A stretch of DNA of 34,626 nt from Caulobacteraceae bacterium. GTDB taxonomy: Bacteria > Pseudomonadota > Alphaproteobacteria > Caulobacterales > Caulobacteraceae. The DNA is taken from NCBI GenBank assembly GCA_025352085.1, contig JANXUA010000142.1:1-34626 (forward strand), read 5' to 3'. The notes beneath the pieces are model-generated. The model saw nothing but the letters and a program-made list of their open reading frames with translations. It did not search any database and was not told where the DNA came from. This document shows, piece after piece, positions 25,626 to 32,281 of the stretch; positions within the stretch are counted from its first letter, which is position 1; each line of letters opens with the position of its first letter. The position numbers and the translations under genes are program-made.

Positions 25626-26324
25626 ATGTTCAAATCCATGGCGCAACGCAAGACGATCTTGATTGTCGACGACGACGATGACCTCCGTGCGCTCCTGTGC
25701 GAACAGCTTGAAGCTGGCGGCGAGTTCTCGACCTTCGCCGCGGTCGACGCCGACGCCGGCGTTCGCGCGGCTGTGGAGCGTCGCCCGGACCTGATCCTGA
25801 TGGACCTCGACCTGCCCGGCAAAAGCGGGCGCGACGCCTGTCGCGATCTGCGCGGCGAGGGTCTTTCGACGCCGATCATCATGCTGACCGCCTCCGACAG
25901 CGACGCCGACACCATTCTCGGTTTGGAATCGGGCGCCAACGACTATGTGACCAAGCCGTTCAAGGTGTCGGTCCTGCTCGCCCGCATCCGCGCCCAGCTG
26001 CGCGATCACGAACAGTCCGAGGACGCCGTCTTCCGCATCGGACCGTACGAATTTCGCCCGGCCGGCAAACTCCTGATCGACGAAAAGGGCAAGAAGCTGC
26101 GCCTGACCGACAAGGAGACCAATATCCTCAAATACCTCTACCGCGCCGGCGAAAAGCCGGTGTCGCGCGAGGAATTGCTGGCCGAGGTGTGGGGCTATAA
26201 CGCCGGCGTCACCACCCACACCCTGGAAACCCACGTCTACCGCCTGCGCCAGAAGATCGAACCGGACCCGACCAACGCGCGGCTGCTGGTGACCGCGTCG
26301 GGGGGGTATCGGCTGGCGCCGTAG
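25626..26324 (+). CDS. cenR: OmpR-family response regulator, probably CenR
   Basis: 232 aa. Receiver domain: acidic cluster IVDDDDD, phospho-acceptor Asp60 in LILMDLDLPG, switch residue in MLTASDSD and the invariant Lys in YVTKPFK. A winged-helix DNA-binding domain follows: LRLTDKETNILKYLY, VSREELLAEVWGYNAGV, TLETHVYRLRQKIEPDP and the closing GGYRLAP. Sequence style and position next to yggS and the L,D-transpeptidase gene suggest CenR, the essential envelope regulator of Caulobacter. No kinase gene is adjacent. ATG at 25626 or 25638 (giving MAQRKTILIVDDD, closer to family length). Confidence 0.88.
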   Translation: MFKSMAQRKTILIVDDDDDLRALLCEQLEAGGEFSTFAAVDADAGVRAAVERRPDLILMDLDLPGKSGRDACRDLRGEGLSTPIIMLTASDSDADTILGLESGANDYVTKPFKVSVLLARIRAQLRDHEQSEDAVFRIGPYEFRPAGKLLIDEKGKKLRLTDKETNILKYLYRAGEKPVSREELLAEVWGYNAGVTTHTLETHVYRLRQKIEPDPTNARLLVTASGGYRLAP

Positions 26325-26358
26325 GGTGTGGAGGCGAACGACCCCCAAGCAGACCTTA

Positions 26359-26811
26359 TCAATCGAACTGACTAAGGCGAGATCTTGCCGCTTCAAGCAC
26401 GTCTGCATCAAAGCGGGCGGGAAACTTGAGCGCCAAAGCCTCAAAGGTCAGGTCGGGCATCCCACGTTCGATCAACATATCAAATCCAGCCGATGCGCCC
26501 TTGAGGACGGGGTCGCGGACCGTCTTTTGCTCACCATCCCGACCGATTTTTTGCCGAGTCCGCGCTAGCAGGGTCGTTTTGTTCCGCTCATCCTTGAGCG
26601 CTTCCTCGAGCGCGTAGATGCTCTGCCAAACCGCGTGCTCTAATGTGCCTTGCTCAGCGGAAGGTTTCACCGCGCACAACCGCCGGAACGCTGCGTCGCG
26701 CACCTCGATCACCCCGCGTTCGCGGGCATTTTTCATGATCTGTTCCAGGCTGTTGGCGTCGTCGCAGTTTTCGATATGACGAAGCGCTCGCTTCACATGG
26801 TCCGTAATCAT
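26359..26811 (-). CDS. Conserved hypothetical protein, second gene of accessory operon
   Basis: 150 aa, soluble and charged, with no signal or membrane segment. The pattern TLEHAVWQSIYALEEALKDE followed by TTLLARTRQKIGRDGEQKTV, then a C-terminal FDMLIERGMPDLTFEALAL, looks like a conserved alphaproteobacterial hypothetical family, recalled without a function. The closing part resembles a repeat of helices. ATG at 26811, 6 bp after the stop of the first gene, so the two are co-transcribed. It is convergent with cenR. GC content is lower than that of its neighbours, which suggests acquisition. Confidence 0.75.
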   Translation of the reverse strand: MITDHVKRALRHIENCDDANSLEQIMKNARERGVIEVRDAAFRRLCAVKPSAEQGTLEHAVWQSIYALEEALKDERNKTTLLARTRQKIGRDGEQKTVRDPVLKGASAGFDMLIERGMPDLTFEALALKFPARFDADVLEAARSRLSQFD

Positions 26812-26817
26812 CAGTCT

Positions 26818-27141
26818 TTAGCCCCGCTCTTGTGAGGAGTGTAGCGAGCTAGCTGGTCCCCAAACTGCGCCATAAGTGAAGAAGCCACACCACGGCACTC
26901 GACCGCGCGCCTGGACAATCTCATAGTCTGGACGCATTTCTTTCGCGACTTCGTTGCCGACCCATTGCTTGAAGCGGTCGTGCTTCGCGAACTCGGGGAA
27001 ACGAGCGCTGATCTCGTGGACCACGGCCGCGACACCGGGAATTCCGAGGCGGGCACATAGGCGATATTCGGCGATCCGCTCTGGGGCATGGATGATAGCG
27101 GCAACTTCCCCTCTGACCTCTTCAGTAAACTCTGGCTGCAT
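26818..27141 (-). CDS. Hypothetical protein, first gene of accessory operon
   Basis: 107 aa, soluble. The frame opens MQPEFTEEVRGEVAAIIHAP and carries LCARLGIPGVAAVVHEISARF, HDRFKQWVGNEVAKEM and RVPWCGFFTYGAVW; I do not recognise the family. It is preferred over an overlapping 125-codon frame (26811-27188) because GGAGGT lies 5 bases before its ATG and its composition is protein-like, whereas the other is rich in Ser and Arg and has no ribosome-binding site. Transcribed leftward from a promoter with two palindromic repeats, then 26359-26811. Possible toxin-antitoxin or regulator pair; unproven. Confidence 0.7.
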   Translation of the reverse strand: MQPEFTEEVRGEVAAIIHAPERIAEYRLCARLGIPGVAAVVHEISARFPEFAKHDRFKQWVGNEVAKEMRPDYEIVQARGRVPWCGFFTYGAVWGPASSLHSSQERG

Positions 27142-27153
27142 ATTGACCTCCAG

Positions 27154-27201
27154 ACCGCACGTTTCGTGCTATTCAATATACCGCACAAATCGTGCGGTCA
27201 A
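27154..27201 (-). promoter_or_regulatory. Promoter with tandem palindromic operator of the unknown operon
   Basis: Two repeats of ACCGCAC-N3-TCGTGC lie at 27154-27169 and 27180-27195, 26 bp apart start to start. The right copy extends to a palindrome, CCGCAC/GTGCGG (27181-27197). On the minus strand TTGACC (27201-27196) and TATATT (27180-27175) form a -35/-10 pair with a 15-bp spacer, and the -10 lies between the repeats. The ATG is 13 bp past the proximal repeat. A regulator binding both repeats would block the promoter. Confidence 0.65.
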
Positions 27202-27273
27202 TAGCCAAATCAGGCCCTTGCTCGCACGCCGATCCGGGCTCGGCCAGGTGCGACGGCTACCAGATTTTGTCCG

Positions 27274-28080
27274 CTAAACCATCAGATCGATCGAGATTGG
27301 GGCGTGATCGCTGGGGCGCGCCCATTCGCGCACGTGGTCGTGCACCCGCGCGCCGGGCGCTCCGTTGGCGAAGGCGGCGGCGCGCAGGCCGGGCGTGATC
27401 CACAGATGATCGAGACGCAGGCCCCGGTTCGAGGCGCGAAAATCGGCGGCGCGATAGCTCCACCACGAATAGAGTTTCCGCGGCTCCGGGATCGCTTCGC
27501 GGGCCAGATCGATGAATTGCCCCGCGCTTTTGAGCGCCGCCATGGCCGCAAGCTCGATCGGCGTATGGCTGACCACTTTCGACATGTATTTGTGGTTCCA
27601 CACATCGTTCTCGCCGGGCGCGACGTTGAGGTCGCCGGCGACGATCAGGGCGTTGCGCGGATCGCGGCGGTCCATCTCGGCGGTCAGGCGCTCGAAGAAA
27701 TCGAGCTTGTGATCAAACTTCGGGTTGAGCGCGCGGTCGGGGATATCGCCGCCGGCGGGGATATAGAAATTCTGGATCTCGATGCCGCTGACAACCGCGC
27801 CGATGGCGCGGGCGTGGCCTTCGCGGCACAGATCCAGCGTCGGCGCGTCGTCGATCGGCAGACGCGAGGCGATGGCGACGCCGTGCGAGCCCTTCTGACC
27901 GCCGATGCGGAGATGCGGCAGGCCGGCGTCCACGAAGGCCTGCACCGGAAACTCGGCCTCGCGGCATTTGATTTCCTGCAGGCACAAGACGTCGGGTGCG
28001 GCTTCAGCGACGAACCGCGCGACCTGCTCGGCGCGCAGACGCACGGAATTGACGTTCCACGAAGCGATTCTGAGTTGCAT
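27274..28080 (-). CDS. xthA: Exodeoxyribonuclease III
   Basis: 268 aa. AP endonuclease and 3'-5' exonuclease of base-excision repair. The catalytic residues of the Exo III fold are present: Asn in ASWNVNSVR, the metal-binding Glu in LQEIKC, GDLNVAPGENDVWN, the Tyr/Asp segment FYIPAGGD, RLDHLW and the terminal SDHAPISIDL with the catalytic His. ATG at 28080, following the DUF4337 gene by 41 bp in the same direction, so it may be read from the ppdK promoter. Confidence 0.95.
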   Translation of the reverse strand: MQLRIASWNVNSVRLRAEQVARFVAEAAPDVLCLQEIKCREAEFPVQAFVDAGLPHLRIGGQKGSHGVAIASRLPIDDAPTLDLCREGHARAIGAVVSGIEIQNFYIPAGGDIPDRALNPKFDHKLDFFERLTAEMDRRDPRNALIVAGDLNVAPGENDVWNHKYMSKVVSHTPIELAAMAALKSAGQFIDLAREAIPEPRKLYSWWSYRAADFRASNRGLRLDHLWITPGLRAAAFANGAPGARVHDHVREWARPSDHAPISIDLMV

Positions 28081-31383: not shown

Positions 31384-31816
31384 GGCGGCAGTCTTTAGCC
31401 GATGAGGCCGCGCGGCGGAATTGCCAAAATGGCAGGAGGCCGGGCGTCAAGCCCGCCCCGCACAAACGTCGCGGATCAGGCGGGGCGGACGGGACGTCCA
31501 CCCTCCGGGGCGCTGGAACATGGCCAATCGGCTGAGGTCGCGCCACTTGACATGTAACGCGGCGCCGTCGAGCGGCAGCCAGACTGCCCGGCTGGGCGAA
31601 GGCTTGTCGTCCGAGCGCCACGCCAGAGGCGACCCTATTCGGCGCCAGTCTGGGGTTCAGATTTCATGCCAATTGACAGCCGCCGGTCAACAGGAACATA
31701 AACAATTTGACGGATTTGAGACTTATTCTGAGCGTCAATCAGAGTCCCGCGGCAGCAAAGCCCGTGTAAGTATACTTATCGCCCACTTACCATCAATCCC
31801 GAATTGGAGGCGCACT
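31384..31816. other. Gene-free stretch upstream of ppdK and of the orphan gene
   Basis: A frame is open from 31421 into the orphan gene, but no ribosome-binding site or coding character supports its first 130 codons. It holds two inverted repeats: TGCCA-AAA-TGGCA (31422-31434), about 40 bp upstream of the ppdK ATG and possibly an operator, and CCGCCCCGC/GCGGGGCGG (31453-31488). From about 31660 rightward the base composition becomes AT-richer. Confidence 0.5.
31767..31778. promoter_or_regulatory. Palindrome with a -10-like core before the orphan gene
   Basis: TAAGTATACTTA is a perfect 12-bp palindrome ending 38 bp before the ATG of the orphan gene, and contains TATACT, a good -10 match. No -35 match is visible at 16-18 bp upstream. 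It may be an operator or activator-dependent promoter. Confidence 0.4.
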
Positions 31817-32281
31817 ATGCCGGGATCAGTCAAGGGAGAATTCAGAGTAGAATATCGGAGAGACCATAATCTCTATGATAGAAATCTAATATTCTTCGCA
31901 ATAAACCCTGGGAAGAAGCAAAACGAGTGGCGCTCCCAGAACATTTTTGGGAAATCGCAGGTCGAAAAAATCGTCAGCGACATAAATTCCGCCAAAGTTT
32001 TTGCGGCTATTGTCCAAGATCCATCTCACGTGTTCGTCTCGAAGCAGGATATTGATCGCTTGACGATGTGGATTCGGCCCACCGACGCCCCATCCGGCGA
32101 TGCGGCGGCGTGGATCATTATGCAATCCAAGGAGTTGACCGTTGGAGAGTCGGTATTGATCAATGATAGTCTTAAGAAGACCATTACAGCAAACCTGAAG
32201 GGAGGAATTCAGGGGCTGGACGGGGGACAAAACCGCTTTGTGACCGTCACATTGAGCGAAGATTTTGTAAACACGAAGTAG
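31817..32281 (+). CDS. Orphan hypothetical protein of low GC
   Basis: 154 aa, predicted soluble, no signal or membrane segment. I recognise no family. Visible features: a basic N-terminus (VKGEFRVEYRRDHNLYDRN), a central stretch of alternating hydrophobic residues (AKVFAAIVQDPSHVFVSKQD), and a C-terminal part that looks beta-rich (NRFVTVTLSEDFVNTK). ATG at 31817 with GGAGG 7 bases upstream, a strong signal. Codons are markedly more AT-rich (ATA, AGA, AAA) than in neighbouring genes, which points to horizontal acquisition. It stands alone between ppdK and glyS and is convergent with glyS. Confidence 0.75.
   Translation: MPGSVKGEFRVEYRRDHNLYDRNLIFFAINPGKKQNEWRSQNIFGKSQVEKIVSDINSAKVFAAIVQDPSHVFVSKQDIDRLTMWIRPTDAPSGDAAAWIIMQSKELTVGESVLINDSLKKTITANLKGGIQGLDGGQNRFVTVTLSEDFVNTK

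Follow-up and report, generated by a model that had tools for sequence, protein, structure and literature searches.

What do two small, adjacent open reading frames in a Caulobacteraceae genome encode, and do they make up one system? The window analysed here, meaning the whole stretch of DNA studied, spans 34,626 nucleotides (contig JANXUA010000142.1 of assembly GCA_025352085.1), and its preliminary description proposed an acquired, self-regulated two-gene system, possibly a toxin-antitoxin or phage-defence module. Two uncharacterised reading frames for proteins of 107 and 150 aa, separated by 6 bp, as described there, were recovered, and both are backed by homologs. The genes and their surroundings are as follows.

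25626 to 26324, plus strand: response-regulator gene (cenR of the preliminary description), a conserved neighbour of xthA in the genus.
26325 to 27273, no strand: acquired insert of 949 bp in the convergent cenR-xthA gap, empty in 11 congeners and low in GC and GC3.
26359 to 26811, minus strand: gene 2 (P0002), 150 aa, mostly helical, possible restriction-accessory protein (from homologs).
26818 to 27141, minus strand: gene 1 (P0001), 107 aa, predicted autorepressor with helices and a β-hairpin (from homologs and AlphaFold2).
27147 to 27151, minus strand: Shine-Dalgarno GGAGG of gene 1 (from the sequence).
27274 to 28080, minus strand: exonuclease III-like gene (xthA of the preliminary description), flanking the insert.

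The horizontal origin of the gene pair as an acquired insert is well supported. In the window, 949 bp separate cenR from xthA, while in 11 of 11 congeners the two genes are likewise convergent but only 10 to 179 bp apart (measured between the ends of protein matches), with neither gene 1 nor gene 2 between them. These 11 are the congeners carrying the response-regulator gene and xthA on the same contig piece; for xthA itself, all 16 genomes of the genus gave a match. The GC content of the insert is 58% vs 67% for the window, and its GC3 is 0.62-0.66 vs 0.83-0.85 for the flanking genes. The lower GC noted earlier was thereby confirmed, and the proposed acquisition gained good support. No target-site duplication was detected at the insert ends. 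Elsewhere in the window, a second low-GC islet (49-58%, 31421-32281) lies between the genes for an 899-aa and a 673-aa protein; it carries an uncharacterised open reading frame on the plus strand and is possibly another small acquired insert.

Neither gene 1 nor gene 2 belongs to a family in Pfam, PHROGs, NCBIfam or PADLOC, no relatives were found in phage records or IMG/VR, and sequence-profile searches of the PDB returned chance-level matches only. The genes represent two separate, patchy families that meet only in this genome among the genomes searched. A single-sequence search of 148 genomes with gene 1 gave no match besides its own, and a profile search added one family relative (G017), in which gene 2 has no match. 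Likewise, gene 2 was absent from all 42 loci that carry a gene 1 relative, within the flanks fetched. The two genes do not form a conserved system, each normally occurring without the other, and the idea of one two-gene system, which had been made dependent on the genes being found together in other genomes, was accordingly given up. The restriction of the pair to a single genome would also fit two unrelated passenger genes, adjacent by chance and with no joint function, a reading that leaves room for gene 1 as an autorepressor. We hold it to be somewhat unlikely, given the 6-bp spacing, the one shared promoter, the single insert and the occurrence of relatives of both genes in defence neighbourhoods.

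By sequence comparison, gene 1 is a member of an undescribed family with no Pfam or NCBIfam entry. Similarity extends across the whole domain, with Q59, G62, V82 and F88 invariant, and in 41 of the 42 loci (genome contigs) this domain makes up the N-terminal portion of a larger protein. The N-terminal domains of the fused Burkholderia, Paraburkholderia and Achromobacter proteins are homologous to gene 1 (about 31-44% identity), but these larger Burkholderiales proteins also carry a C-terminal DinB_2 domain (two members tested), which is absent from gene 1. No description of the function of the DinB_2-fused relatives was found in the literature. Relatives without DinB are few, namely those of Mesorhizobium, G017, G841 and G411. 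The Mesorhizobium gene has a recombinase gene region on one side and, on the other, an OLD-type ATPase/TOPRIM gene with an Eco57I-like methylase; that of G017 is divergent from a complete type I restriction-modification locus, hsdM-hsdS-hsdR (hsdM from a Pfam match, the other two from reading the sequence). The G841 relative, a longer protein, is divergent from AbiEi/AbiEii-like genes, and the G411 relative is longer too.

Gene 2 relatives were detected in 5 of the 148 related genomes and in 12 of 385 genomes of the class, counts that include its own genome and some matches to the C-terminal half only. In one congener (G013) 28 bp separate an EcoAI-type hsdR from the relative behind it, in another genome (G059) the relative lies 57 bp after an mcrC-like gene, and on a Sinorhizobium plasmid it follows an HNH-like fragment (HNH read from sequence). 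Five matches of gene 2 were to plasmids, four of these conjugative. Judged from its neighbourhoods only, gene 2 would assist restriction or another DNA-level defence. More distant relatives were found in metabolic operons, e.g. nadA-X-nadB (gene names read from sequence), so the family is not confined to defence. The phage-defence role suggested initially is thus borne out in part: relatives of the two genes do occur beside restriction and AbiE genes, but those of gene 2 also reside in the nadA-X-nadB setting. At one such locus (L147, 6059-6526) the gene 2 relative has nadA on one side and a nadB-like gene on the other, the ends overlapping, a hint of a housekeeping role for part of the family. 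In shorter proteins of about 96-168 aa (L097-L101) the similarity is confined to the C-terminal half of gene 2; this half may be an independent small domain that is widespread. Visual inspection suggested a RAMA domain beside another relative (L138), but Pfam did not support it. The model of gene 2 computed without an alignment (pLDDT 45) was too poor for use.

Small tandem genes with the antitoxin-like one first, palindromes on their promoter and residence in an acquired insert are also what would be expected of a toxin-antitoxin pair in which gene 1 is antitoxin and autorepressor and gene 2 the toxin. This reading is disfavoured because gene 2 relatives occur without gene 1, in nadA-X-nadB or after hsdR or mcrC; in addition, the fused gene 1 relatives lack gene 2 in the flanks fetched, and no toxin family was matched above chance. 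With neither a consistent partner nor a toxin family match, the earlier toxin-antitoxin proposal is not supported and we regard it as very unlikely.

Evidence on how the pair may be controlled comes from the DNA upstream of gene 1, where the following elements were assigned.

27153 to 27199, no strand: hyphenated dyad of 47 bp centred on the -10 region (from shuffles and ranking among 354 genes).
27157 to 27169, no strand: operator copy O2, core palindrome GCACGAAACGTGC, just 3' of the -10.
27173 to 27180, minus strand: probable -10, either TATATT (27175-27180, 15-bp spacer) or TATTGA (27173-27178, 17-bp spacer), as judged from the sequence.
27180 to 27198, no strand: operator copy O1, ACCGCACGATTTGTGCGGT, filling the -35/-10 spacer and unique in the genome.
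27196 to 27201, minus strand: probable -35, TTGACC, read from sequence.

The repeat ACCGCAC-N3-TCGTGC occurs in two exact copies (27154-27169 and 27180-27195), each of which contains a near-palindrome and which together form the single 47-bp dyad, whose 17-nt arms are separated by 13 nt and show 88% complementarity. Two operator copies on either side of the -10 had been described previously; both exact copies stand, and the geometry was corrected, the first copy making up the -35/-10 spacer and the second lying downstream of the -10. The score of the dyad was reached by none of 1000 shuffles of the 60-bp promoter. It was also among the strongest upstream dyads of 354 genes, the other top scorers being nearly all 5' of gene 1 relatives, a ranking that is a comparison within loci largely picked for holding the gene 1 family and no census. 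A perfect CGCACRWWTYGTGCG is found at one site only in the 3.0-Mb genome. The promoter is weak by consensus, and a consensus promoter scan made no call for it.

The AlphaFold2 model of gene 1, built from 16 sequences, was confident (pLDDT 90.5) and consists of helices followed by a β-hairpin of two strands. Fold searches with this model gave no significant match (best Foldseek E 1.0, best VIA Z 3.8), so that the structure prediction and search called for in the preliminary description yielded a reliable model but no assigned fold. Forkhead, histone H1 and Cullin winged helices were among the weak matches, all with Z below 4. Since the fold matches are weak, several of them being winged helices, the fold is at most compatible with DNA binding.

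In most gene 1 relatives checked, a dyad was likewise found on the promoter -10, its sequence differing by clade (the -35 and -10 positions of relatives were read by eye). TAACGTATCNTTTTGATACGTTA or a close variant is present upstream of 41 of 41 fused genes, and each of the 8 Burkholderiales genomes searched (4.3-8.1 Mb) contains this dyad at a single place, with up to two mismatches allowed. The alphaproteobacterial member in G397 matches 18 of 23 positions of the Burkholderiales site, which one of 1500 shuffles equalled. The G017 relative has a different dyad at the same promoter position (shuffle fraction 0.002), and G841 and G411 share a third one (0.02 and 0.008, respectively). The Mesorhizobium relative, the nearest unfused one, is without a dyad at the -10 (shuffle fraction there 0.62) and has a palindrome 52-73 bp upstream; its GCACGCAACGTGC resembles O2 at 12 of 13 positions, as did one of 4000 shuffles. 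This type of palindrome is found at 14 sites in the Mesorhizobium genome and, being that common, was counted as suggestive only. A family of autorepressors would be expected to leave this pattern of sites, each private to one promoter in its genome, clade-specific in sequence and constant in position. The dyads on the -10, found at 41 of 41 Burkholderiales genes and once in each of the 8 genomes searched, thus argue that the gene 1 proteins repress their own genes through private operators. Self-regulation, as first proposed, is in this way supported indirectly, by the private operator in the window and by the dyads at the promoters of most relatives.

Two other explanations of the dyads were weighed. 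A host regulator encoded elsewhere could bind the dyad, with both genes as its targets and neither protein binding DNA; the lack of a significant fold match for gene 1 and the possibility that the DinB fusions are enzymes would agree with this. Regulon control would, however, leave several sites, whereas the host genome has this operator only once, all 8 Burkholderiales genomes searched likewise hold a single copy of their dyad, and the operator sequence varies with the gene 1 clade while its position is kept. Such private sites speak against control by a host regulator, which we consider unlikely. Alternatively, the inverted repeats could act as nucleic-acid hairpins (cruciforms or RNA structure) and not as protein operators. 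In Burkholderia loci (L053-L083) the promoter palindrome is prolonged by long outer arms that vary between species yet stay complementary, a pattern that could have arisen through selection or palindrome-correcting mutation. Across the fused gene 1 relatives, 7.3 of 12 outer-arm positions were paired vs 4.9 with shuffled partners, which speaks for hairpins. Against them, the left arm lies 5' of the inferred transcription start and would be absent from that RNA, the sequence of the inner core is conserved, as in a protein site, and Rfam gave no match here. Hairpins are, in our judgement, very unlikely.

An autorepressor of this kind can be compared with several known regulators. The controller (C) proteins of type II restriction-modification systems are small autoregulators that act through a promoter dyad and cause a delay when a new host is entered; they carry an XRE-type helix-turn-helix. 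Gene 1 would share with them the small size, the autoregulation and the promoter dyad, but no XRE-type helix-turn-helix was detected in it with Pfam or NCBIfam. Type II antitoxins and AbiEi also autoregulate by means of palindromes in their operons. The operon layout and the palindromes at the promoter resemble theirs, but gene 1 has neither an antitoxin family match nor a consistent toxin partner. RptR represses type I restriction-modification islands and controls its own promoter via short palindromes over the -10; it is a protein of 79 aa with four helices and no strands that binds TAGCTA repeats (PMC12255303). Some members of the gene 1 family, like RptR, are small single-domain proteins beside type I restriction-modification genes. 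Gene 1 differs in its length of 107 aa, its β-hairpin, its clade-specific dyad and a promoter (27142-27205) without TAGCTA repeats, and its profile gave no match beyond chance to PDB chains. The best-supported reading, by analogy, is that gene 1 would work like RptR or the C proteins while being a member of neither family.

Taken together, we slightly favour an acquired operon in which gene 1 is an autorepressor acting via the dyad and gene 2 its regulated cargo. The reading frames, the insertion, the dyad with its single occurrence in the genome, and the two families with their neighbourhoods are shown. In the model, the two genes entered the convergent cenR-xthA gap together by horizontal transfer. 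Gene 1, a small DNA-binding protein, would probably sit as dimers on both palindromes beside the -10; we infer that it binds the dyad and thereby shuts off its own promoter. Once the repressor has built up, expression of both genes would be low, and entry into a new cell or loss of the repressor would release a burst of both. Gene 2 would be a helical accessory cargo, some of whose nearest relatives end restriction operons, joined here to a repressor from a different family.

More tentatively, and with slightly less than even confidence, we propose that gene 1 is the founding member of a so far undescribed family, in which each very small protein represses itself through a dyad centred on its own -10; the sequence of this operator would vary between clades and be private to one promoter in each genome. 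Unfused members of the family would act as plug-in switches, with restriction, AbiE and other defence genes as their cargo, and in the Burkholderiales proteins the DinB-type fusion may be a sensor. Few regulators are known that keep mobile restriction or defence genes quiet in a new cell, namely the C proteins, RptR and BrxR/CapW. If the proposal is true, these minimal repressors with predictable private operators would provide a test set for the co-change of repressor and site, and the private operators would offer a way to spot unannotated defence cargo.
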